A stretch of DNA of 42,604 bases from a virus: positions 1 to 42,604 of the IMG/VR virus record IMGVR_UViG_3300044732_000792. One strand, 5' to 3'. Both the position numbers and the translations under genes were made by a program. Shown here piece after piece: positions 2,921-42,551 of this stretch (positions within the stretch are counted from its first letter, which is position 1; each line of letters opens with the position of its first letter). The notes under the pieces are model-generated. The model had not been told where the DNA came from. It was given only the letters and a program-made list of their open reading frames with translations, and did no database searches.

Positions 2921-3523
2921 TTATTTAATATCTGTAGTTTCAATTAAAGTATATGTGAATGAATTTCCGTGAACGTTTCTAGCCTTTCTACAGATTGTCA
3001 TAAATTCTTCAAAATCTTTAGATTTTTTAAACACTTGACATCCTTCAGACCAATTCTCAACAAAAGTAGAGTTATCACCTGCCTTATGGATATTAATACC
3101 AAATAGACCCTCATCTATTTTGTTTTCATCATACTTCATATCTTTATTTGGATCTCTGAAAACTTTAACAGGTTTGTTTTGTCCAAGTGCTTCGTATTTT
3201 CCAGCATGTAATCTCATAGTATGAGAACCTCTGTATTGCCCCTCAACCAATCTTGCAACTCCGGCTTTGTTTCCGTATTGCATCACACCCTTTGTTCCAG
3301 GATCGGTAGTTGCTTGCCAAATGTGGAATTTCCATTCACCATTTTCTTTATAAGAAATTGTTAAGTAATCATCAAAAAGATTTGTTACTTTATTCCCTGT
3401 TGCAGAATTTCTAATTCCAACGATATTAACATCATAACCTTTGTTGTTGGTATCTTCAAACCATACATACTTTTTAGCTTTAACCGCCGCTTCAACTTGT
3501 TCTCTAGTATAAGACATATTCAT
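2921..3523 (-). CDS. YkuD-like (L,D-transpeptidase motif) cell-wall protein
   Basis: A 200-aa protein. Near the C-terminus it has G-I-N-I-H146 followed by N-W-S159-E-G-C162-Q-V-F. This matches the His ... S-x-G-C active-site layout of YkuD-type L,D-transpeptidases, in which the cysteine attacks peptidoglycan stem peptides. Related proteins occur in Bacteroidota phages and prophages among lysis or tail genes (from memory). There is no signal peptide, so export would need a holin, or the protein could be virion-borne. It may trim or modify peptidoglycan during entry or lysis. Two in-frame ATGs (3523, 3517) are possible starts. The spacing between His and Cys is a little unusual, so the fold assignment is moderate. 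Confidence 0.6.
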   Translation of the reverse strand: MNMSYTREQVEAAVKAKKYVWFEDTNNKGYDVNIVGIRNSATGNKVTNLFDDYLTISYKENGEWKFHIWQATTDPGTKGVMQYGNKAGVARLVEGQYRGSHTMRLHAGKYEALGQNKPVKVFRDPNKDMKYDENKIDEGLFGINIHKAGDNSTFVENWSEGCQVFKKSKDFEEFMTICRKARNVHGNSFTYTLIETTDIK

Positions 3524-3553: not shown

Positions 3554-4231
3554 TTAGTTATTATCTTTTAGATTTATTATTATATTTGGAGAACACTCTC
3601 TACCCTTTTCAAGGTTCCAAGTATGTTCAGCCCAAACTTCCTCTCTATTAAAAAAAACAGTTCCTTGTGATCCATCTTCTCTTTTCCATCCCTTAAAGTA
3701 TTCGTTAATAAATTCATCAGCAATTCTCTGAAGATTCTCATCACCAGGAATAACCCTACCATCATTAATTAACTCCATTTCCGAGGAAACACTTCCCCAA
3801 CCACCACTACCTTCATATGGTATTGCAATTTCACCGTTATAATTTAATTTATTAAACACATCATTAACAATCTTACGCCATTCATCAAATTGATATAATT
3901 CAAACGAAGCACTATCCGATTCATTATCATAATAGTTAGCCTTAACTCTCATAATAATTTTATAGTTTTTCAAATCAAAAATCATATTAACATCTCTGAA
4001 ACCAGTATCTTCACTATAAGAATCCTCGTATATTTCATCCATATACTCATAAAGAAGGTCCTGAATATAGGTATTAAATGGTGCTGGTATTGTAATTGAT
4101 TGTCCGTTTTCATTGGTGATATCTTCGTCCATATAATCCATCTCACCGCCCCATAATCCAAAATTAACCTCGGCATCTTTCATCCCAAGTTTATTTAAAA
4201 AATTAAATAACATTATGATTTTTTTATTCAT
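3554..4231 (-). CDS. Hypothetical acidic protein (225 aa)
   Basis: Divergently transcribed from the tagged gene at 4330. Acidic and rich in aromatic residues, with a glycine turn (EGSGGWGSVSSEM) and a C-terminal hydrophobic strand (NIIINLKD). It starts MNKKIIMLFNFLNKLGMKD; an internal ATG at 4213 would remove six residues. No cysteine cluster, P-loop or signal peptide is apparent. I do not recognise a family. Its place between a cell-wall protein and the tagged genes suggests a virion or late role, but this is only positional. Confidence 0.82.
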   Translation of the reverse strand: MNKKIIMLFNFLNKLGMKDAEVNFGLWGGEMDYMDEDITNENGQSITIPAPFNTYIQDLLYEYMDEIYEDSYSEDTGFRDVNMIFDLKNYKIIMRVKANYYDNESDSASFELYQFDEWRKIVNDVFNKLNYNGEIAIPYEGSGGWGSVSSEMELINDGRVIPGDENLQRIADEFINEYFKGWKREDGSQGTVFFNREEVWAEHTWNLEKGRECSPNIIINLKDNN

Positions 4232-4329: not shown

Positions 4330-5286
4330 ATGGAACATTTAATAAAAAAAATCATTAAGGAAGAATCGGAACAAAGTGTTTTTTCTCCAATGGAAATTAG
4401 ATTATTTAAATTCGTTAATAAATTCAAACGAGAACTTGGGACTGACACTAAAATGTATGATTTCTTTGAGAACTCAATGGCGACATTTAATTTACCAAAA
4501 TCTGAAGCAAAAAAGTATCAATTAATATACACATACAATTATAGACCTGAAGGTGATTATGAAAACGTCACACAATCAAATTTTAAAGATCCGAAAAAAG
4601 ATAAGCCACGAAAAACTTCAAATAGTGACGCCGGATCATATAGTCAGAGTAAAATCCCTTTTAAAGGTTCCAATCTTGAGGGTTATTGGAAAATGACTCG
4701 TGATAATGAATGGGCATATATTATTATGTCATATGGTTGGTATCCAATATATGTGTTTAAGTATGACAGATGGTTTGAGTCGGATAACACATATTCTTCA
4801 TCCACAGGTAAACAAATGAGATATTCGTATCCGATAAGTTATAGTAATGATTTAGGTCAAAAAACAATTAAAGTTAGTCGGGATGAAATGGAAAAAATAA
4901 TAAATGGTTATTTGAAACCTGAAGATTTATTAACAGGTAGAACCGATAAGTTCGTTGTTGATATGAAGAAAAAACAAAGAACAGGTGAAACAACAACATT
5001 TAGAGGTGGTTGGAATCCACGAGCAAGAATTAAATTTAAAATCTCAAGCGTTAGAAAAGCCAAAAATGGTTATAAAATTATTGTTGATGTTCTTGATGTT
5101 GATAAATTTAATAATAATAAATTGGATAGAGAATCGGGTAACTTCTTTGATGGTGGTATCGTTGGATTGGACAAATCCAAAGTTAAAGAATATCTAAACG
5201 ATTATTTCAGTCAAGAAACAAGACAAAAATTTCAAGGTTTAAATAATGATGTCTACCATATTGACGTATTATTTAGAGGACAATAA
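4330..5286 (+). CDS. Tag-bearing protein (318 aa), unknown function
   Basis: Plus-strand gene starting MEHLIKKIIKEESEQ, the same N-terminal tag as the minus-strand cluster at 1-1768. The body is basic in the middle (KDPKKDKPRKTS) and beta-rich, with several aromatic strands (WAYIIMSYGWYPIYVF). The C-terminal domain contains GYKIIVDVLDVDKF. The second tagged gene follows 1 nt after its stop. That the tag appears in both orientations in separate operons argues that it is a functional module rather than a single duplication event. No enzyme motif recognised. Confidence 0.88.
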   Translation: MEHLIKKIIKEESEQSVFSPMEIRLFKFVNKFKRELGTDTKMYDFFENSMATFNLPKSEAKKYQLIYTYNYRPEGDYENVTQSNFKDPKKDKPRKTSNSDAGSYSQSKIPFKGSNLEGYWKMTRDNEWAYIIMSYGWYPIYVFKYDRWFESDNTYSSSTGKQMRYSYPISYSNDLGQKTIKVSRDEMEKIINGYLKPEDLLTGRTDKFVVDMKKKQRTGETTTFRGGWNPRARIKFKISSVRKAKNGYKIIVDVLDVDKFNNNKLDRESGNFFDGGIVGLDKSKVKEYLNDYFSQETRQKFQGLNNDVYHIDVLFRGQ

Positions 5287-5287
5287 T

Positions 5288-5698
5288 ATGAGACATCTAA
5301 TTAAAAAAATATTAAATGAGGAAACCAATATAACCAAAAGGTTGACTAAATTAATTTATGGTCTTTTTCCCAACACAATGGTTTATGAGGATCATTTCAG
5401 TGATTATGATGGATTTGGTTATGATGTAAGAATAACTTATAAATTATCGGAACGCACTAAAATAGATAAAAGTCAATGGGTTGGTGGTAATAGACCATAT
5501 GATGGTGATATATGGTTTGACATATTAAAAATGGAATCTACCACTCAAGACGAAGACAATTATCAAAAATTTTATTATTATGATGACTTCCCCGAATTTA
5601 TATGGACTGGTTTACAAGATCATTTATATGAGACGACAGAACCATTGATAGGTTCATTTATGTATGTTGATATTGAGTTTAGTTTCAAAACAAGATAA
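5288..5698 (+). CDS. Tag-bearing protein (136 aa), unknown function
   Basis: Starts MRHLIKKILNEETNITKR at ATG 5288, one base after the previous stop. The frame stays open upstream to an ATG at 5246, but that would place the tag internally and overlap the previous gene by 41 nt, so I reject it. The body is acidic and tyrosine-rich (DSDYDGFGYDV-like stretches, a YYYDDFPEF segment). It is followed immediately by a strong bidirectional terminator. Function unknown; grouped with the other tagged proteins. Confidence 0.87.
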   Translation: MRHLIKKILNEETNITKRLTKLIYGLFPNTMVYEDHFSDYDGFGYDVRITYKLSERTKIDKSQWVGGNRPYDGDIWFDILKMESTTQDEDNYQKFYYYDDFPEFIWTGLQDHLYETTEPLIGSFMYVDIEFSFKTR

Positions 5699-6775: not shown

Positions 6776-7510
6776 TTAATCTATTTTTTCACCATTTTGG
6801 ATAACATTCTCAATTAATTGGGGAACACTATTAATTTTGTTCTCCGACATAAAATCCATTACCGATTCTATATCATTATTTCCACCTACTGGTATCGTTT
6901 GTTTCACACCATTTTTAATTACCTCATTAACAAAGAGGGGCATATTATTATTAATGTCAATACCACCCTCTTTAGTTAGTAAAACTCCATTTTGAATGGT
7001 GTCTTCAATTGGAAAAGGATTGTTCTCATTAGACCAACGGGTTTCTTTCACACCATTTTGAATGATTTCTTCCAACATAAATTTATTTACCCCGCTATGA
7101 GTATGAGTCGCTTTCACTCCATTTTGAATGGTATCTTTAACAAATTCATTTCCAATTAAGTTAACAGGTATTCCTCTAGTACTCCTAACACCATCTTCAA
7201 TTACGTGTTTAAACTCGGGATTACCATCCTCTAATAACCAATCAGTTACGTTAACTTTTGGATAACCTAAAAATCTTGACTCAAACCATTTTTGAATATA
7301 TTCCGTTTTTTTATCCTCTAATCCAACCCAAGTAAAAATGTCGTTAAAGAAATGGTAGTTAAACCATAAAATTTTACTATCGGTAAATTCAATTATCCAT
7401 TTTTTTTCTTCAGTTAAAATTAACCAAAACGAATCTTGATGTGAATAACTATCACAATTAACAATCATTTTATCAACCAATCTAAAGACAATTTCTTCAA
7501 ATTTACTCAT
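6776..7510 (-). CDS. TIQNGV-repeat protein (244 aa)
   Basis: The N-terminal ~95 residues are a hydrophobic/aromatic alpha-beta-looking domain. Residues ~100-244 hold six degenerate repeats of about 25-28 residues, each centred on [TVI]-I-[QKE]-[ND]-G-V-x-x-T: VIEDGVRST, TIQNGVKAT, IIQNGVKET, TIQNGVLLT, VIKNGVKQT, VIQNGEKID. Such repeats usually make a binding surface. I do not recognise the family. Promoter box 16 nt upstream (7527-7534). Confidence 0.85.
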   Translation of the reverse strand: MSKFEEIVFRLVDKMIVNCDSYSHQDSFWLILTEEKKWIIEFTDSKILWFNYHFFNDIFTWVGLEDKKTEYIQKWFESRFLGYPKVNVTDWLLEDGNPEFKHVIEDGVRSTRGIPVNLIGNEFVKDTIQNGVKATHTHSGVNKFMLEEIIQNGVKETRWSNENNPFPIEDTIQNGVLLTKEGGIDINNNMPLFVNEVIKNGVKQTIPVGGNNDIESVMDFMSENKINSVPQLIENVIQNGEKID

Positions 7511-11178: not shown

Positions 11179-12009
11179 TCAAATCGCAAGTTCTAACTTA
11201 CCACTCAATGGTTTTAATTTATCAAAATCAAAAAACTCAAAATCATCAAGGGTATAATCATAAAAATTCTTATTACCATTTAATCTGAATGATGGACTAA
11301 TGTTTGTTGTTTCATTTTTCAACAATTCAGATACATAATCAAAATGTCTATCGTATATGTGTAAATTTTGAACCAAATGACAAAACTTGCCAACTTTATA
11401 ACCACAATGCCCAGCAACCATCATTTGTAATGCAAGATATTGTCCTTTATTAATTGTGTTTGCCGTCAAATAGTCTGAAGATCGTTGAACTAATGTCATA
11501 TCCAAAACTTTATCTTCTCCCACCTTTCTAATAGAACAAAGTATTTCATAAGCACAAGGAAATAAACCATTTGTTTCTTCTAAATCAACATACTGATACA
11601 TACTAATAATGTGTCTCCTACCAAATGGATCATTAACCAAACCATCAAGTAGTTTATTCATTAAATCATATCTTTTGATTGTTGCCCCATATCTTTGCCC
11701 GATACTATTATCACCGACATTCCATTCATCCCACCAATTAATACCCATCTCACGAGCAACCTCAAGTGATGAAGTTTGTTTTTGGTATATCCAAAGTATT
11801 TCTTTAATACCCGTTTTGATTGCGGTATTTCTTAATGTTGTAATTGGAAACTCACCTTTTGAAATATTATATTCCTCAAATACCTGTGTGATAAACTTTG
11901 AGTGTGCTGGTGTCCCATCAGAATATTTGGGTCTTGGGTTTTCATCCAAAGAACCTTCTGACATAATCTTTGATAAGTTCTGAATATAATATTTGTCAGC
12001 GTTGTTCAT
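11179..12009 (-). CDS. thyA: Thymidylate synthase (ThyA type)
   Basis: A 276-aa ThyA-fold protein that methylates dUMP to dTMP using methylene-tetrahydrofolate. Visible signatures: DPFGRR131-R132HIISMYQ (phosphate-binding Arg), catalytic C152 in LFPCAYE, QRSSDYL (175-181; Q-R-S-x-D), N187 in TANTINKGQY (the Asn that selects dUMP; dCMP hydroxymethylases have Asp here), and H217-x-Y219. Odd point: the residue after the catalytic Cys is Ala, where most ThyA proteins have His. It supplies dTTP for an AT-rich genome. It overlaps the gene at 11996 by 14 nt. Confidence 0.88.
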   Translation of the reverse strand: MNNADKYYIQNLSKIMSEGSLDENPRPKYSDGTPAHSKFITQVFEEYNISKGEFPITTLRNTAIKTGIKEILWIYQKQTSSLEVAREMGINWWDEWNVGDNSIGQRYGATIKRYDLMNKLLDGLVNDPFGRRHIISMYQYVDLEETNGLFPCAYEILCSIRKVGEDKVLDMTLVQRSSDYLTANTINKGQYLALQMMVAGHCGYKVGKFCHLVQNLHIYDRHFDYVSELLKNETTNISPSFRLNGNKNFYDYTLDDFEFFDFDKLKPLSGKLELAI

Positions 12010-19350: not shown

Positions 19351-21051
19351 TTATTTTTTAAGTCGTTCACGAATTTCCGTTAAGGTTGTTAGGTTATAGA
19401 ATATACCATCTTCATAAATTGGTTTTAACTCACCTGTTTGTTCTTCCTCCCAAGTTTGACGATCCACTAATTTATAACCATCTTCACCTGTTGTTACACG
19501 AAGTAATCCTGTTGCCGATTTCTTTGTTCCATCATCAGTGATTGGATCTTTGAAGATTTCTCTACCAACGATTTGTCTGTTCAATCCTTGATCTGCAAAG
19601 TCACCATATGTTGGAACTTCTAATTCAACATACGTTGCTTTAACCGCACCACCTTGATTATCTCTTGTTGCGTACCCCATTGAATAAGATCCGACACCAA
19701 GAACAACATTTGTTGAAGCAAAACCTTTTGCTTCCAATCTTCCACAAATTTGGTTCGCTCTGTCAATCGTGATAGAATCACCATAGATTGCTCCAATGTG
19801 AGAATCAAGAACTTTGTAACCTTGTTCGTTGATTGTTCCACCGAATACATCCCAAAGTAATTCAATAACACCTTTATATTCAGGTGAATTCGTTGGTTGT
19901 ACTTTACTTTTTGAGATTACATTATGGTTTAACAAATCATCAAAATCTCTCAAGACATCAAGTGCACTTTCACCATACTCCATTAACAATTCTTCAACAA
20001 CCTCACCATCAAAATCATATAAAACACCTTGATAATCAAAAGTAAATGTATCGTGATCCCAAAATAATTCTTGATAATCATCATCCTTAAATTTAGGGTA
20101 AGAAATTGAATTTAACCCACAAAGAATGTCAACAGGATCACCTGAATCAGGACGAATAACCAATTTACCATCACGAGCCATAATCTCATCTTTTAATTCA
20201 GACACAAATTTTGTGCAAACTTGCCACAAATCAAATGAATCCGAAACCACACTTAAGATACCCGTTGGATATTGTTTCATCAATCTTTTGAACCCGTCAA
20301 TCTCGTTTTCCTTGCCATATGCCGTCATAACTGCGTGTTCTGATGCCGGAACTGAAAAAGCAACATTACTATCACCATAGTAATATTTCGCCGCTTGTAG
20401 TGTTGGAATTGTATCCGTCCCACTAAAAGAAGTTAAAAATCCAAGTCCTGAACTAATTGCTGATTCAGGATGTTGCATACCCCTAAAAGAGAAGTCGTGT
20501 CCTTGGAAATCAACAAATCCAATATTACCTTTATCGGTTTTATTTGCGTGTCCCAAAAGGACTTTTTTATACCCATACGCCAATGAAGCGGAATGTACTG
20601 GCTTCCATATTAAACTAGAAATTAATGTTTCCAAAAAGTTCGGTAACCAAAAGAAATCAGGATGAGTATTATAAATTGTCATCATCGGAATTTTTTCGGT
20701 AATAATTGACCCTTCAGGTAATGATTTAATTTTAATTGGTAAATACCCCAAGTCATGCAGTTTTTCAAAATGTGTGCAATCATAATCAACACCTAAATAA
20801 CTACTTAAAAATTGTTTAGCTTCACCAACAACTTCATTTTTCGGTCTACTAAAAAAGTTTTCATTATAAAGATCGTTAATATATTTGATAGTGTATTGAA
20901 TACCAAATACCACGATGTCTTTTGCCGTTTCCGGCATTCTTTTTACACTTCTTGGTGTAAAGTTTGAATAAACCAATGTTGTCCCTTCAGGATACATTTT
21001 ATGATGTGATGTTTTATAACCATCTGTCATCAATAAAGGATTGTTTTTCAT
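19351..21051 (-). CDS. nadV: Nicotinamide phosphoribosyltransferase (NAMPT/NadV)
   Basis: Makes nicotinamide mononucleotide from nicotinamide and PRPP. Key parts: N-terminal TDGYKTSHHKMYP, GFVDFQGHDFSFRGM, D213 in SGTDT, catalytic H239 in SVPASEHAVM, and VIRPDSGDP (R300, D302, PRPP/nicotinamide site). At 566 aa it is about 70-75 residues longer than typical NAMPT; the extra segment sits after the RPDSGDP motif (residues ~310-390, rich in acidic and aromatic residues) before the conserved GYKVLDSHIGAIYGDSI block. Operon with PRPP synthetase provides its substrate, the two-step NARP1-type pathway that refills NAD+ (from literature). Confidence 0.95.
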   Translation of the reverse strand: MKNNPLLMTDGYKTSHHKMYPEGTTLVYSNFTPRSVKRMPETAKDIVVFGIQYTIKYINDLYNENFFSRPKNEVVGEAKQFLSSYLGVDYDCTHFEKLHDLGYLPIKIKSLPEGSIITEKIPMMTIYNTHPDFFWLPNFLETLISSLIWKPVHSASLAYGYKKVLLGHANKTDKGNIGFVDFQGHDFSFRGMQHPESAISSGLGFLTSFSGTDTIPTLQAAKYYYGDSNVAFSVPASEHAVMTAYGKENEIDGFKRLMKQYPTGILSVVSDSFDLWQVCTKFVSELKDEIMARDGKLVIRPDSGDPVDILCGLNSISYPKFKDDDYQELFWDHDTFTFDYQGVLYDFDGEVVEELLMEYGESALDVLRDFDDLLNHNVISKSKVQPTNSPEYKGVIELLWDVFGGTINEQGYKVLDSHIGAIYGDSITIDRANQICGRLEAKGFASTNVVLGVGSYSMGYATRDNQGGAVKATYVELEVPTYGDFADQGLNRQIVGREIFKDPITDDGTKKSATGLLRVTTGEDGYKLVDRQTWEEEQTGELKPIYEDGIFYNLTTLTEIRERLKK

Positions 21052-21055
21052 ATTT

Positions 21056-21412
21056 TTATTTTTTTAGTTCTATAATTTCTTCTTCAATACATTCAGTTAA
21101 GCAGGTTCCCCCATTGTAAAATCTCATAATGAATGATAATGTTCCATCCTCATTTTGGGTTATTTGGTAAATGTCATCATCGCCATCAAGTTTCACATGA
21201 TCAAACGCTTCCCATATTTCATCTTCAACAAAAAAATAGGTTTCAGAAAGATTTAAGTGATATTGTAATGTTTCTTTCCAAGAATCGTAATGTTCTATCA
21301 TTGTGGGAACACCTGCGTCTTGACATTTTTCTCTACACCAATCTTCAACCGAATATCCTTCGTTTAAATCAACTTTGCGTAGTTTTCCTATGTGATGTTC
21401 AGTATTACTCAT
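21056..21412 (-). CDS. Hypothetical protein (118 aa) between prs and nadV
   Basis: Acidic protein starting MSNTEHHIGKLRKVDLNEG, with an aromatic, acidic second half (LSETYFFVEDEIWEAFDH, YQITQNEDGTLSF). It sits between the PRPP synthetase and NAMPT genes with 1-5 nt spacing, so it is stoichiometrically co-expressed. It could assist or regulate NAD salvage. I recognise no motif. Confidence 0.8.
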   Translation of the reverse strand: MSNTEHHIGKLRKVDLNEGYSVEDWCREKCQDAGVPTMIEHYDSWKETLQYHLNLSETYFFVEDEIWEAFDHVKLDGDDDIYQITQNEDGTLSFIMRFYNGGTCLTECIEEEIIELKK

Positions 21413-22344
21413 TATTTAAAAACATTTAATTGTTTAACCAATTCGTGAATTGTTTTGTGTTTACTGAAAGTATTAACGATAGTCCCGTCTTGAATATCCT
21501 TAATACTATTTGTCGTATATATTCTATCAAAATACTCTGAAAGTGTTTCAAATCCCGCACTGAATATTCCGTGAGTAACGATTAAATAAATTCTTCCTTT
21601 GAATTGTTCGTTTTCTTTGATTGTTCTTGCAAGATTAATGAATGTCCCACCTCCATCACATATATCGTCAACAATAAATAAATCTTTATCCATTAATTCT
21701 TCAGTTAAAGGGATGGTAGTTTTACTTAATTTACCATTGATGTCTCGGTGTTTTGAACAAACAACCACATCACATTTAGATTGGAAATTATCGGCGACTT
21801 TGTAAACTTTTTTAAGTGCTCCAGCGTCAGGTGATAAAAAGACAATGTTTGACATATCACTAATGATTTTACCATCATTAACCCAATAATGAAACAATGC
21901 GTCTTGAACTAATTTTATATTGTCAACCTTTTCAAAGTTGTTGATACAGGCCTCAATCACATCTGAATGACTATCCATTATTGTTACTTTTTCATATCCT
22001 TGAGAATTAATGATTGGTGCAATAACATTTTTAATGTAGTTGATTCCCCCTTCTTGGAACTTCCTATCACTTCTTCCACCAATACAATATGGAATATAAA
22101 GACGAATAGTTTTTACACCAATTTCTTTAAGTGCCTGTGTTGCACAGATAATCAACTCTAAATCTCTGAAGTCATTCAAACGAGATTTGATTGTAATCCC
22201 GTGAGTTTGTTTTCTAATAGTTTCAAAAGTTTCGTTATTGTGTTCAACAATTCTAACAGATTGTTGTCCGTCAGGAAATTTACTAATCTCGTATTTACAA
22301 GATAATGTGTCTTCTGGATTTACCAAATTTAATGTGTCTGCCAT
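21412..22344 (-). CDS. prs: Ribose-phosphate pyrophosphokinase (PRPP synthetase)
   Basis: A 310-aa enzyme that makes PRPP from ribose 5-phosphate and ATP. Signatures: FPDG (23-26), YIPYCIGGRSDRKF flexible loop region (83-96), D124-S-H126, SPDAGALKK (171-179), and the PRPP loop IVDDICDGGGTF (224-235). Several positions differ from bacterial Prs (for example SDRK in place of QDRK), as in other phage Prs proteins. It feeds NAMPT encoded two genes downstream, forming the NARP1-like NAD+ restoration pair. Confidence 0.93.
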   Translation of the reverse strand: MADTLNLVNPEDTLSCKYEISKFPDGQQSVRIVEHNNETFETIRKQTHGITIKSRLNDFRDLELIICATQALKEIGVKTIRLYIPYCIGGRSDRKFQEGGINYIKNVIAPIINSQGYEKVTIMDSHSDVIEACINNFEKVDNIKLVQDALFHYWVNDGKIISDMSNIVFLSPDAGALKKVYKVADNFQSKCDVVVCSKHRDINGKLSKTTIPLTEELMDKDLFIVDDICDGGGTFINLARTIKENEQFKGRIYLIVTHGIFSAGFETLSEYFDRIYTTNSIKDIQDGTIVNTFSKHKTIHELVKQLNVFK

Positions 22345-29056: not shown

Positions 29057-29791
29057 TTATTCAACAAATTCAAAATATACCTCATTAATTATTTTAGATT
29101 TCAAAACATAACGATAAAATGTGGATTTTGAGACTTCCTTACCATTACTTAAATTAAATTCTAAATTAGCATCTTTCATTGTGGTATATTCAGATAAAAA
29201 TTTTCCGTCATATGTAAACTTACAAACTTTTTTAGATCTACCATTTTTATCCCCAATAACTTTATTAGAATGATTAATTTTTTTTTCTTCGGACCATTTA
29301 TACTTACCCAACAAAGATTTTGATATATTTTCTTTATGTTCTTTTGTTTTTGTTTTGTTTTTAAGGGACTTTGAGATATTTCTAGAATGTTCTTCGGTTC
29401 TAACCATATTCTTGAAGACTTTACTTATATGTTCAATCTGTTCTTGGGAAAGTTTTTTACCTTTATGGTATTTTTTATTATTGTTAATAATAAACTCTCT
29501 TCTTGCTAATTTAGATTCTTCATAAATCCTACTTGATTTAATAGTTTGATTTTTACCCATATATGTCATTGCGTAAAAAGCAAATGCCATTTTTTCATTT
29601 CTATAAATTCTCCATAGCAACCAATGAGCAATGAAATGTTCTCTTGCCGTTAAATATATTAAATTATTCGGATCATCACTACCACCCATACTTTTGGGGA
29701 CAATGTGATGTTTTTCATAATATTCTCCGTCAATAATTATCCGTTCCTTTCTTGAGTTGATTAGTAATTCGTAATGTTTTTTATAGTCCAT
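29057..29791 (-). CDS. HNH homing endonuclease with NUMOD modules
   Basis: N-terminal HNH: EKH28H29IVPKSMGGSDDPNN43LIYL...EH52FIAH56. The middle has NUMOD3-like basic repeats (TEEHSRNISKSL, KEHKENISKSLLGKYKW). The C-terminus is a NUMOD1-like helix-turn-helix (VCKFTYDGKFLSEYTTMKDA). It cuts DNA at a specific site and spreads by gap repair. It is free-standing here: the flanking genes are intact and it is not in an obvious intron. Paralogous to the HNH gene at 33837. Confidence 0.92.
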   Translation of the reverse strand: MDYKKHYELLINSRKERIIIDGEYYEKHHIVPKSMGGSDDPNNLIYLTAREHFIAHWLLWRIYRNEKMAFAFYAMTYMGKNQTIKSSRIYEESKLARREFIINNNKKYHKGKKLSQEQIEHISKVFKNMVRTEEHSRNISKSLKNKTKTKEHKENISKSLLGKYKWSEEKKINHSNKVIGDKNGRSKKVCKFTYDGKFLSEYTTMKDANLEFNLSNGKEVSKSTFYRYVLKSKIINEVYFEFVE

Positions 29792-32561: not shown

Positions 32562-32987
32562 TTATCCATTTTTTCTGTTTTCTTTTACTATTGACAATGC
32601 TTCACTTAAATTCCAGTAAGCACATTTTATTCCCCCTCTATCATCCAAAAATATATTCGCATATATCTTACCATTCAAACCATACGGAACGGTCCATTCA
32701 GGATGCATTTCGTTTATACCGTGAACTTCAATCCCTAAACTCTCAACTTGTTCTTTTGTGCGTAGTAATTGTGATTTACTTCTTGCGGTGTTAATTAAAA
32801 ATATAATACCTTCTTTTTGACATTCCAAAATTAAATCAACCACTTTTTGACAATGTTCTTTTAATTCATTGTTATAAGGTATGATTGTATCGTCAAGATC
32901 ACAACCAATAATTAATTTACCATTCTTTAACCATTCGGTTACAAGTCGGTTGACAAAAAAGTCGGCATGATATCTAATTGGTTTCAT
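32562..32987 (-). CDS. HAD-family hydrolase (141 aa)
   Basis: Nucleophile motif IIGCD30LD32DTIIPY; motif II in IIFLINTARSKSQ; acidic motif IFLDDRGG. The short N-terminal extension precedes a compact core with no cap. ATG 32987; an earlier TTG is less likely. Likely phosphatase for a nucleotide or nucleic-acid end; specificity unknown. Third HAD protein of the window. Confidence 0.83.
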   Translation of the reverse strand: MKPIRYHADFFVNRLVTEWLKNGKLIIGCDLDDTIIPYNNELKEHCQKVVDLILECQKEGIIFLINTARSKSQLLRTKEQVESLGIEVHGINEMHPEWTVPYGLNGKIYANIFLDDRGGIKCAYWNLSEALSIVKENRKNG

Positions 32988-32988
32988 A

Positions 32989-33255
32989 TTATAATCTATT
33001 TGCAATTTTTTGTATTACTTCTTCTTCTTCTTTGGTTAATTGATAATATGAGTTCCATATTTTAGTTAGATCATCTCTCAAATATTTTTCACCATCCGAT
33101 TCTACATCACCTCTAACCATTTTTCTTATTTCAGGATCCGAATGATCATCTAAAATTCCTTCATCGTATAACCATTGGGCAATTGTTTTTTTATCCCTAC
33201 TACCCATTTCACTATAGATGTCATCTAAATCAACCTCAATACTAATGTAACTCAT
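32989..33255 (-). CDS. Hypothetical acidic protein (88 aa)
   Basis: Begins MSYISIEVDLDDIYSEMG and ends in a helical EEEEVIQKIANRL. Acidic; includes KTIAQWLYDEGIL (helix-turn-helix-like). Such short acidic proteins with a 'ISIEVDLDDIYSEM' start recur in Bacteroidota phages, role unknown. One nt ahead of the HAD gene. Confidence 0.8.
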   Translation of the reverse strand: MSYISIEVDLDDIYSEMGSRDKKTIAQWLYDEGILDDHSDPEIRKMVRGDVESDGEKYLRDDLTKIWNSYYQLTKEEEEVIQKIANRL

Positions 33256-33286: not shown

Positions 33287-33311
33287 GGTGACTCCATCAA
33301 TGGGAATCACC
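33287..33311 (-). terminator. Intrinsic terminator overlapping the end of the RNA ligase half
   Basis: Minus strand GGTGATTCC / GGAGTCACC type hairpin followed by TTTTTTTC, overlapping the last codons and stop (33297) of the gene. Confidence 0.8.
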
Positions 33312-33809
33312 GAAATTGTGTTTTTCACTTGCTATCAAATATTCGGGATTTATTACTTTACTCACTTTTCTACGATCACCTGTAACAGATTTAACAACTA
33401 TACCTTCGTGGGGAACTTTAGTTCCTTTTATATAATTGTTGAAGACATATTTGTCTTGTTCTTCTTTACTCCAATTACCTTGATATAACAATTCAACCTG
33501 TGGTAAGTGTAGACAATCAAAATGAGTAGTTTCTTCAAGGTATGGTTGGTACACTCCATCAACTTCAACATCAAATCCTGCGAACTTAACATCGGTTAAA
33601 CCATATTCGTAATTTTTTTGTATTCCCGCACCATATATCTCACCATAGATTATAAATCCTTGAGTTAAATTAGATGGTTCGTAAGTATCTTTTACGTGTT
33701 CCCACAATTTTTCTTTTATATTGTGTTTTTCACTTATTTCGGACCACACATCTGTTGGATAAAAATGTGTTTGTTTTTTTTTAAAAATTTTGTTTAATAA
33801 TTTTTTCAT
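33297..33809 (-). CDS. RNA ligase, C-terminal half (separate piece)
   Basis: Holds the second half of an Rnl5-like RNA ligase: FYPTDVWSEI, FIIYGEIYG (motif III, 52-60), HEGIVVKS (motif IV, 134-141) and KVINPEYL (motif V). These are the nucleotidyltransferase motifs missing from the gene at 34612-35304. The HNH gene at 33837-34505 lies between the halves. It has its own ATG (33809) and its own TATCTTTG box at 33822-33829. Residues 8-14 (IFKKKQT) resemble the last residues of the upstream half (VLKKIQS), so the junction sequence is present on both sides. Confidence 0.85.
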   Translation of the reverse strand: MKKLLNKIFKKKQTHFYPTDVWSEISEKHNIKEKLWEHVKDTYEPSNLTQGFIIYGEIYGAGIQKNYEYGLTDVKFAGFDVEVDGVYQPYLEETTHFDCLHLPQVELLYQGNWSKEEQDKYVFNNYIKGTKVPHEGIVVKSVTGDRRKVSKVINPEYLIASEKHNFGDSH

Positions 33810-33821
33810 ACTTTTTTTATT

Positions 33822-33829
33822 CAAAGATA
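33822..33829 (-). promoter_or_regulatory. -7 promoter box (TATCTTTG) for the ligase C-half
   Basis: Box 12 nt before ATG 33809, between the HNH stop and the ligase C-half. It suggests that this half can be expressed on its own. Confidence 0.6.
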
Positions 33830-33836
33830 AATAATT

Positions 33837-34505
33837 TTATTCATATTTCCAAATAAATCCTCCGGCGGTTTTAACTTTATTTCTACAACAAGCATTAATA
33901 TTCTGTTGATCAATATTGAGAATTCTTGATGCTTCAGCTCCAGAAATCCATCTTTTTATGAAATTTCCGTATTTATCAAATTGACATATTGGTTTTGTAT
34001 TTTTTCTATTCATTTCTGAAATATCTGATCTCTTTATACCTTTATTACCATTAGGTTTTCCTTTATTCCAAGGATCTTTCCCTTTGGCATGTAAATTAGG
34101 TATTCCTTTATTCCAAGCAATACGACCTTTTAATGGACTTGGTTTTCCTTTTAGTGAGTTATAATTAGCTTTATTTTTTTCTTCTTTTAATCTTTCGTAA
34201 GTTTTTGAACTAACCTTATAATCTCTATTTTGACTACCGCTTTTACCAAATAACATAAACCACATTGCGTGTTTTAGTTTATGATTTTTTGGGTATATCT
34301 CTAAAAGTAATAAATGAGCAATAAAATGTTCTCTGGGTGTTAATAAAACGATATTAGGGTGTGTTCTCCATTGATGACATTCCCCTTCACCACCTAAACA
34401 TTTTGGTATTATATGATGTGCTTCATATGACACACCTTGTTTTTTCTTTCTATTTTCATTTTTTGCACGAAAGACTAATTGATTGTATATTTTTTCATAA
34501 TCCAT
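33837..34505 (-). CDS. HNH homing endonuclease inserted in the RNA ligase gene
   Basis: HNH motif: EAH30H31IIPKCLGG ... HPN51IVLL ... EH60FIAH64. NUMOD3-like Gly/Lys-rich stretches follow (KGKPSPLKGR, WNKGIPN, WNKGKPNGNKG), then a C-terminal NUMOD-like domain (ICQFDKYGNFIKRW ... GGFIWKYE). It shares its layout with the HNH gene at 29057. It lies exactly between the two halves of the RNA ligase gene, in the same orientation, either as an intron passenger or as an insertion that fractured the gene. Confidence 0.92.
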   Translation of the reverse strand: MDYEKIYNQLVFRAKNENRKKKQGVSYEAHHIIPKCLGGEGECHQWRTHPNIVLLTPREHFIAHLLLLEIYPKNHKLKHAMWFMLFGKSGSQNRDYKVSSKTYERLKEEKNKANYNSLKGKPSPLKGRIAWNKGIPNLHAKGKDPWNKGKPNGNKGIKRSDISEMNRKNTKPICQFDKYGNFIKRWISGAEASRILNIDQQNINACCRNKVKTAGGFIWKYE

Positions 34506-34611
34506 AAAAAAAGAAATCCCTAAAGAAACTAAAAAGGTACGAGCTTTTTAACTCAATAGGGGTTCTAATAAATTTATTTAAGTTCTCGTACAACCTATAA
34601 TATTATAAATA
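34506..34611 (-). other. Structured spacer (possible intron RNA) between ligase N-half and HNH
   Basis: 106 nt without an ORF. Two interleaved pairings: GTACGAG/CTCGTAC (34537-34543 with 34585-34591) and CCCTA/TAGGG (34518-34522 with 34557-34561). This order gives a pseudoknot-like fold on the minus strand. Together with ~50 nt after the HNH gene it is small for a group I intron core. Confidence 0.5.
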
Positions 34612-35304
34612 TCATAATGATTGTATTTTTTTTAAAACATTGTGGCTTCCTATGTGAAATTCATATTCACACCACTTCCATTTGTCACCACCAATACCAA
34701 AATTAGAGTTTAAAAATATTTTTATTTTTTCAATAAAAGTTATTTTTTGTTTTTTTAAAATTGCATAACGAGCGTTGGTTCCGTGTAACTTACGAGTTAT
34801 AACAACCTCATCTTCCTCATTGAACATATCAGGAACATTCTTTTGATTAGGAAACTTGTAATAAACGTGGAAGTTTGGGTTTTGGTGGTATTTCACTTTT
34901 CTACCTCCAACACTTAACTGAACGGTTTTAACTGGTGGTTCGTATTTGGTAACACGCAATACTACCATCATATCATCACCCTCAAATACATTATTCACCA
35001 TTGATCTTGGTTCCAAATATTTGAATGGTATTAACAAACATTCGGAGTAAACTCCACGAAGTTTTACGGTTCTAACTCGTTGTCCTTTACGGAGGTAGTT
35101 AGTAACTCCCATCAAGTCAGATAATGCTTGCGGTATAACCGCATCTGTAGTTGCAACAACAACTAAATCACCTACCTGATATTCTCCTTTTTGCGTTATG
35201 GCATTCCATCCACCGACTAACGCTAATTCTATATTATCAGCTCCTTCTATTGGTTTAACCTCTCCGATTCTCCCAACATAACATACACTATTTTGATTCT
35301 CCAT
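34612..35304 (-). CDS. RNA ligase, N-terminal half (Rnl5/DraRnl-like)
   Basis: Residues 1-125 look like the N-terminal OB-fold of DraRnl-type ligases (VGRIGEVKPIEGADNIELA). Residue K172 in ITRKLHGTNARY is the motif I lysine that is adenylylated; EYEFHIGSHN (213-222) is motif IIIa. The protein stops 8 residues later (VLKKIQSL), before motifs III-V, so alone it cannot be a complete ligase. The missing motifs are in the gene at 33297-33809. Start ATG 35304; TTG 35310 rejected. Such ligases seal RNA nicks left by anticodon- or ribosomal-RNA-cutting defence enzymes. Confidence 0.88.
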   Translation of the reverse strand: MENQNSVCYVGRIGEVKPIEGADNIELALVGGWNAITQKGEYQVGDLVVVATTDAVIPQALSDLMGVTNYLRKGQRVRTVKLRGVYSECLLIPFKYLEPRSMVNNVFEGDDMMVVLRVTKYEPPVKTVQLSVGGRKVKYHQNPNFHVYYKFPNQKNVPDMFNEEDEVVITRKLHGTNARYAILKKQKITFIEKIKIFLNSNFGIGGDKWKWCEYEFHIGSHNVLKKIQSL

Positions 35305-41888: not shown

Positions 41889-42551
41889 TTATAAATATAT
41901 ATCACCTTCAATATTAACAATCTGTTTAATTTCTTGACTGGTATGTTTATTTGATATTGGGGTATCTTCTAAATATAAACTACCTCCAACCGATGTTAGA
42001 TTTCCCAATGATTCAATTGGAGTATGTCGTAAATATAAATCACCACCAACTGATGTTAAATTTCCCAATGATTGAATTGGAACATTTTGTAAAAATAAAC
42101 TACCTACAACCGATTTTAGATTTCCTAATGATTTAATTGAAGATTCATATAAATATAAATCACCCCCAACCGATGTTAAATTTCCCAATGATTTAATTGA
42201 AGATCCATATAAATATAAATCACCCCCAACCGATGTTAAATTTCCCAATGATTTAATTGAAGATCCATATAAATTTAAATTACCCTCAACCGATTTTAGA
42301 TTCCCCAATGATTTAATTGGAGTATGTCGTAAATCTAAATGACCTCCTACCGATGTTAGGTTTCCCAATGATTCAATTGGAGTATGTCGTAAATCTAAAT
42401 TACCTCCAATTGAATATAATGGATTTCCTTTTCTATCCAAATATTTTTGTAACTTGTTCCAATCATTGTCAAAAATTTCAAATGATGGAATATGAAGAAC
42501 TTTTGGTTCTTTTAATTTTTTAAATTGGTTTTCCGTGATGATAATTTTCAT
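41889..42551 (-). CDS. 20-residue LRR-like repeat protein (220 aa) with ITENQF tag
   Basis: Begins MKIIITENQFKKLKEP, then from residue ~45 to 205 eight repeats of 20 residues of the form SLGNLTSVGGxLxLxxTPIx. The Leu spacing is typical of leucine-rich-repeat-like beta solenoids. It ends IKQIVNIEGDIYL. The repeats are nearly identical in DNA too (60-bp period), so the array can expand or shrink by recombination. Possible binding or adhesion role. Stop lies 3 nt before the metallopeptidase start. Confidence 0.9.
   Translation of the reverse strand: MKIIITENQFKKLKEPKVLHIPSFEIFDNDWNKLQKYLDRKGNPLYSIGGNLDLRHTPIESLGNLTSVGGHLDLRHTPIKSLGNLKSVEGNLNLYGSSIKSLGNLTSVGGDLYLYGSSIKSLGNLTSVGGDLYLYESSIKSLGNLKSVVGSLFLQNVPIQSLGNLTSVGGDLYLRHTPIESLGNLTSVGGSLYLEDTPISNKHTSQEIKQIVNIEGDIYL
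41945..42420 (-). repeat. 60-bp tandem repeat array inside the LRR-like gene
   Basis: About eight units with 60-nt period, coding for SLGNLTSVGG... Copies differ at few positions, indicating recent or gene-converted expansion. Confidence 0.9.

Follow-up and report, generated by a model that had tools for sequence, protein, structure and literature searches.

The viral DNA analysed here (the window, 42,604 nt) carries an RNA ligase gene that is split in two by an HNH endonuclease gene. From the sequences compared below, we think it probable that a free-standing, MobE-like HNH cassette with its own promoter-like box and leader divided the ligase by homing, and that the two halves still pair into an active enzyme. 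All three genes lie on the minus strand, and the features are as follows.

34612–35304, minus strand: RNA ligase N-half (from the ATG at 35304 to the stop at 34612), with the OB domain, motif I (KLHGTN) and the Ia region (GSHN)
34604–34611, minus strand: promoter-like box TATTTATA, directly after the N-half stop; TATTTAT is enriched upstream of genes in the window
34506–34598, minus strand: structured leader RNA of the HNH gene, in which hairpin 1 and a linker are followed by an outer helix around hairpin 2, a U-run and then the ATG
34585–34591, minus strand: hairpin 1 apical loop GUACGAG, complementary to the hairpin 2 loop
34537–34543, minus strand: hairpin 2 apical loop CUCGUAC, complementary to the hairpin 1 loop
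33837–34505, minus strand: HNH homing endonuclease gene, MobE-like by best hits, 222 aa, with C-terminal NUMOD-type DNA-binding motifs
33822–33829, minus strand: box TATCTTTG of the TAnnTTTG type, 12 nt 5' of the C-half ATG
33297–33809, minus strand: RNA ligase C-half (from the ATG at 33809 to the stop at 33297), with motifs III, IIIa, IV and V; its new basic N-terminus of 15 residues, MKKLLNKIFKKKQTH, follows a pattern shared with a second split allele, L039
33735–34764, minus strand: stretch acquired together, made up of the cassette and the exon sequence beside it, about 150 nt from the N-half and about 30–40 nt from the C-half (co-conversion tract)

One ligase gene in two reading frames

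On PHROG 968 (RNA ligase, 398 positions), the N-half covers positions 4–226 (E 8e-41) and the C-half positions 225–394 (E 3e-13). The Pfam matches of the N-half are the PHA02142 OB domain (PF21189, E 1e-15) and the start of RNA_ligase, while the C-half matches RNA_ligase (PF09414) over positions 37–171 (E 9e-11). The nearest solved structure to an intact relative is the RNA ligase of Naegleria gruberi, both by sequence (E 8e-15) and by Foldseek with an AlphaFold model (E 1e-20). Since the halves are complementary on both PHROG 968 and Pfam, and the intact relative is Naegleria-like, the two reading frames are the exact split of one ligase. The OB domain and the nucleotidyltransferase motifs I, III, IV and V that mark an Rnl5-type ligase are all present, divided between two ORFs. 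In what we take to be the usual nomenclature, KLHGTN is motif I and GSHN the Ia region, both in the N-half, and YGEIYG is motif III, FDV motif IIIa, HEGIVVK motif IV and KVIN motif V, all in the C-half.

The original prediction had described a ligase gene split by an HNH gene in the same direction, and both the complementary halves and the uninterrupted relatives described below bear it out, the HNH frame running from 34505 to 33837. It had also placed motifs III–V in 33297–33809, where III, IV and V were found, and the OB domain with motifs I and IIIa in the N-half; there the OB domain and motif I stand, and the supposed IIIa gives way to the Ia region, motif IIIa being in the C-half. The C-half does have its own ATG and the promoter box ascribed to it, and boxes of the TATCTTTG type are over-represented upstream of gene starts in the window, although the motifs are short and the enrichment modest. 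The 42.6-kb record, which may be a fragment, was scanned for a second ligase, and no other match to the N-half was found within it. Shortly downstream of the C-half lies a gene for a HAD-like hydrolase (32562–32990, minus strand), which may belong to an RNA end-repair set.

Intact relatives and a second split allele

Two scans of IMG/VR gave 159 loci with a readable ligase gene, several of which share a contig. About 150 of these loci span the site of the split, and all but L039 read through it with two extra codons and no insert, thereby supplying the uninterrupted copies in related phages that the original prediction had proposed to look for. Because the intact relatives run through the site in this way, the split is real and more than chance. 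The exception, L039, comes from a different metagenome and is split at the same point by an HNH gene (gap of 898 nt), its N-half, leader, HNH gene and C-half following one another as they do in the window. Identical residues between the two amount to 69% in the N-half, 58% in the C-half and 52% in the HNH protein, the split ligase alleles thus differing at 31–42% of their residues. The N-terminal extension of the C-half is MKKILSKFFKKKEKKH in L039, recognisably related to the MKKLLNKIFKKKQTH of the window, likewise basic, and absent from the intact relatives; 10 of 15 aligned residues are conserved, with a pN/pS of 0.25 (15 codons only).

At the point of the split, 52 intact relatives carry the octapeptide EKGSDSQG, in which E215, K216, G217, S218, Q221 and G222 are invariant and D219 and S220 nearly so. 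The octapeptide is missing from both split alleles, on both sides of the insert: the N-half ends in NVLKKIQSL and a stop, and the split alleles go on with ..QTHFYPTDVW. In an AlphaFold model of the intact L001 ligase, the break falls in a loop-like segment of low confidence (residues 213–226, pLDDT<50). With EKGSDSQG lost from both split alleles, the divided enzyme may work less well or differently.

The endonuclease and the traces of homing

Over 197 residues the HNH protein aligns with PHROG 655 ('homing endonuclease'). Among cultured phages its best matches (33%) are homing endonucleases encoded next to nrdA in T4-like phages, the position of T4 mobE, and for this reason we call it MobE-like, an assignment by best hits rather than by a tree. 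A scan of the genome contigs for the HNH protein gave no match. The window holds a second HNH gene (29057–29791, minus strand), the start of which is about 40% identical to the first; it has TATTTATTAAT immediately before its ATG and lacks a structured leader.

Over much of its length the window ligase hardly differs from an intact allele, the best being L096, on the same contig as L001. DNA identity to L001 in 60-nt blocks of the N-half is 82–100% up to nt 540. At about nt 541 of the joined gene, in which the insert lies at nt 690, this identity drops to 45% from 98%; it rises again past about nt 720, and the C-half with its downstream flank is again close to intact L001 (88% over 195 nt). 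The blocks around the insert have identities of 45, 45 and 56% to L001 and of 65, 82 and 77% to L039, so that identity to L039 peaks around the insert. At the protein level, the window and L039 agree at 78% in columns 200–225, and the intact relatives all reach 28% or less.

Co-conversion is the copying of exon DNA beside an element together with the element itself during endonuclease-driven homing (PMC2988022). Because about 180 nt around the insert are L039-like and the remainder closely resembles intact alleles, the sequences indicate that the cassette arrived by homing from a related phage, with co-conversion replacing this flanking exon. As the tract differs from L039 by about 20%, L039 need not be the donor. 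The endonuclease between halves of the same direction, the uninterrupted allele in relatives and the co-conversion of the flanks are together the marks of the mobE type of Aeromonas phage Aeh1.

The sequence of events that we propose is as follows. An HNH cassette, equipped with a promoter-like box and a 5' leader that folds, entered the ligase at one of the most highly conserved loops; the endonuclease would have cut an intact allele near GSHNVEKGSDSQG, and flanking exon was replaced in the repair from the donor. The N-half would now be translated as far as the new stop at the edge of the cassette, and the C-half expressed from its own promoter and ATG. The endonuclease would be translated from its own leader mRNA, in which the kissing loops and the start-codon helix could time or limit synthesis. 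The two ligase polypeptides would then pair to form one active ligase, by analogy with the split NrdA of Aeh1.

The leader RNA of the cassette

The original prediction did not include the structured leader, the co-conversion tract or the second split phage L039. From the N-half stop to the HNH ATG there are 109 nt, 79% identical to L039 with gaps counted, against 52% for the HNH proteins. In the minimum-energy folds of both sequences, the two 7-nt loops are fully complementary and hairpin 2 lies inside the outer helix. The stems differ and yet pair, with AAAAAG/CUUUUU in the window and AAUUA/UAAUU in L039. Compared with shuffled sequences, the fold is modest in the window (z −1.3), and z ranges from −3.4 to −4.9 in L039, L196, L202 and L180. 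The full architecture (hairpin 1, enclosed hairpin 2, complementary 7-nt loops, U-run and start) is present in the window, L039, L196 and L202, and was seen at 9 of the roughly 45 different HNH starts examined, where about 0.24 would be expected from the control rate. A loose kissing-loop descriptor alone was not discriminating (51 matches vs 41 in a Markov control) and was informative only by position beside HNH starts.

An exact-pattern scan with the window leader (GTACGAGAACNTAAATAA) gave L039 as its only real match; L161–L164 were rejected as chance hits that share no common context. Matches to the leader pattern in genome contigs were mostly chance, BLAST of the leader in cultured phages gave nothing convincing, and a MAFFT alignment of the window-type leaders was of too low quality for pair counts. 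The box TATTTATA also occurs elsewhere in the window: inside the coding repeats of an ORF with repeated SLGNLTSVGGDLYL units (41889–42551, minus strand), and just before the ATG of some of the several small, apparently paralogous ORFs at 89–1768 and 4330–5698, which start with MKxLIRHIIKEE or similar.

A larger family of leaders

Several HNH relatives have a second, sequence-conserved version of the leader (GTAGAG..CTAC hairpin), modelled here as R1. A pattern scan gave 34 non-redundant leaders with 24 pairs, 95% paired, of which 16 were changed on both sides. Covariation in these 34 was 0.562, compared with 0.183 when shuffled (0 of 500 shuffles reached the observed value) and at most 0.114 when slid. 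Loop complementarity had been a requirement of the first scan set, and a second scan therefore left hairpin 1 free. It gave at least 95 unique leaders with at least 34 distinct loop 7-mers, and the upstream hairpin loop held the 7-nt complement in 90 of the 95 listed (swap control, 1.9%). The idea that the complementarity was a selection artefact of alignment A3 was dropped, as this independent pattern carries no constraint on hairpin 1. The family has no match in Rfam 15 and, going by that database and the literature searched, appears to be undescribed. Model R1 matches the window leader at 10.2 bits (E=6, not significant) and does not match L039; the window leader would thus belong to the family by architecture only, and common descent is not established by sequence. 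A sequence-only leader model, R2, was also built.

In 29 of 55 leaders TATTTAT stands exactly 4 nt before the hairpin, and TAnnTTTG stands 4 nt before it in 14 of 55; in a variant subfamily TAnnTTTG is 5 nt before the hairpin in 13 of 13. This fixed spacing makes a transcription start at the hairpin likely. We take TAnnTTTG to be the Bacteroidetes promoter element, and the hosts are therefore probably Bacteroidota. The variant leaders (CCTTATTACTTGCGAC..GTAGTAGGG; L248, L249, L250, L252, L259, L276, L277, L348 and L368), always with TAnnTTTG 5 nt before hairpin 1, precede DUF6291, Prim-Pol/DUF3987 and other replication-type genes.

Among the matches listed, which come from uncultured phages, about half of the genes downstream of leaders are homing endonucleases (NUMOD4-HNH, GIY-YIG and HNH) and the other half includes replication-type genes such as Prim-Pol and DUF6291; the leader is therefore not endonuclease-specific. 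Whether it is a new class of phage RNA, a portable expression switch built on kissing loops, carried by at least three endonuclease families and used by replication genes, we judge to be evenly balanced. Such a switch, spanning the transcription start to the helix and U-run at the start codon, could act by attenuation or by translational timing.

A cassette with a related leader splits thyA likewise in L177, where the pieces match Pfam Thymidylat_synt at 1–82 and 81–265. In the window, the thymidylate synthase gene is uninterrupted (11179–12009, minus strand). One contig, L425, has two copies of the leader pattern on its minus strand (3472–3509 and 7304–7341). Known RNAs accompany two other cassettes: a GOLLD RNA (RF02032, E 6e-43) at 591–1077 of L319 shares the contig with a leader-endonuclease cassette, and a DUF805b RNA (RF02914) lies at 3731–3763 of L166, just downstream of a leader-HNH cassette.

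Alternative explanations

The insert lies on the same strand inside a conserved gene and has a structured RNA at its 5' edge, as would a self-splicing intron, whether of group I or of some new compact kind, that carries an endonuclease and whose splicing yields a continuous ligase mRNA; the last nucleotides of the N-half, CAAUC, could form a P1-like pairing with UAGGUUG just inside the insert. However, no Rfam intron family, and with it no conserved ribozyme core, matches at E<=10, while the 3' side has neither conserved nucleotides nor a G (omega-G) near the start of exon 2. Splicing could not rebuild the normal protein either, because EKGSDSQG is encoded on neither side. Furthermore, related leader-endonuclease cassettes lie about 12–40 nt past the stops of complete genes (recA/uvsX-like, DNA polymerase), sites where an intron would be meaningless. 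We therefore rejected a group I or other intron as very improbable, in line with the original prediction, which had preferred an Aeh1-like gene in pieces. An assembly chimera of unrelated pieces is likewise very improbable: the contig is metagenomic and its identity breakpoints are sharp, but the same gene order recurs in L039 from another metagenome despite the large divergence, and the C-half and its flank continue in L001-like sequence.

The loss of the conserved octapeptide, and the fact that homing elements can enter non-essential genes, would also fit a ligase inactivated by the insertion, its halves decaying as remnants beside a selfish gene. We consider this unlikely, since both frames are open in two phages that have diverged widely, pN/pS between the window and L039 is well below 1 (0.32 in the N-half and 0.43 in the C-half), the catalytic motifs are retained in the C-half and its new N-terminus is conserved in pattern. 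Between the C-half and intact L081 pN/pS is 0.17, with 0.23 in an intact-intact control; the window copy looks like a recent transfer, so that a large part of the low pN/pS relative to intact alleles could be older than the split. A split by homing into two halves that pair remains our preferred reading.

Relation to known systems

The closest parallel is nrdA of Aeh1, where, as in the window, a free-standing HNH gene lies in a conserved phage gene, the two halves are separately encoded and an RNA structure is found at the start of the endonuclease, which is of the same family by best hits. The halves of the mobE-split NrdA can be fully functional (PMC2988022). In the window, the host gene is an RNA ligase with putatively functional halves, and the RNA is a two-hairpin kissing-loop leader after a promoter-like box, whereas that of Aeh1 is a simple hairpin hiding the ribosome-binding site. 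Gene 43A/43B of phage 25 and gene 60/39 of T4 (mobA) are essential genes split by or near free-standing homing endonucleases (PMC2988022), but these are other genes, with other or promoterless endonucleases. The Naegleria gruberi ligase (Rnl5 type; PDB 5cot and 6vt series) shares with the phage protein the N-terminal OB and nucleotidyltransferase domains, at about 22% identity, but is a single polypeptide, and the EKGSDSQG loop between motifs Ia and III belongs to the phage family. The PR1 phage ligase (PDB 9hu3), a weak structural match of the same superfamily, is described in its entry as heterodimeric, that is, two polypeptides, and as a DNA ligase, unlike the RNA ligase of the window.

To the small set of phage genes that are known to have been divided by free-standing homing endonucleases, the window adds an RNA ligase and L177 adds thyA, and co-conversion can be seen here in natural sequences. 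A question that follows is how a ligase tolerates the loss of a conserved loop and an active site divided between two proteins, and the leader offers a handle on the way in which mobile endonucleases carry gene control of their own with them. Elsewhere in the window, nicotinamide phosphoribosyltransferase-like and PRPP-synthetase-like genes lie near each other (19351–21051 and 21412–22344, minus strand), a pair that we presume to resemble the NAD+ reconstitution gene pairs of phages.
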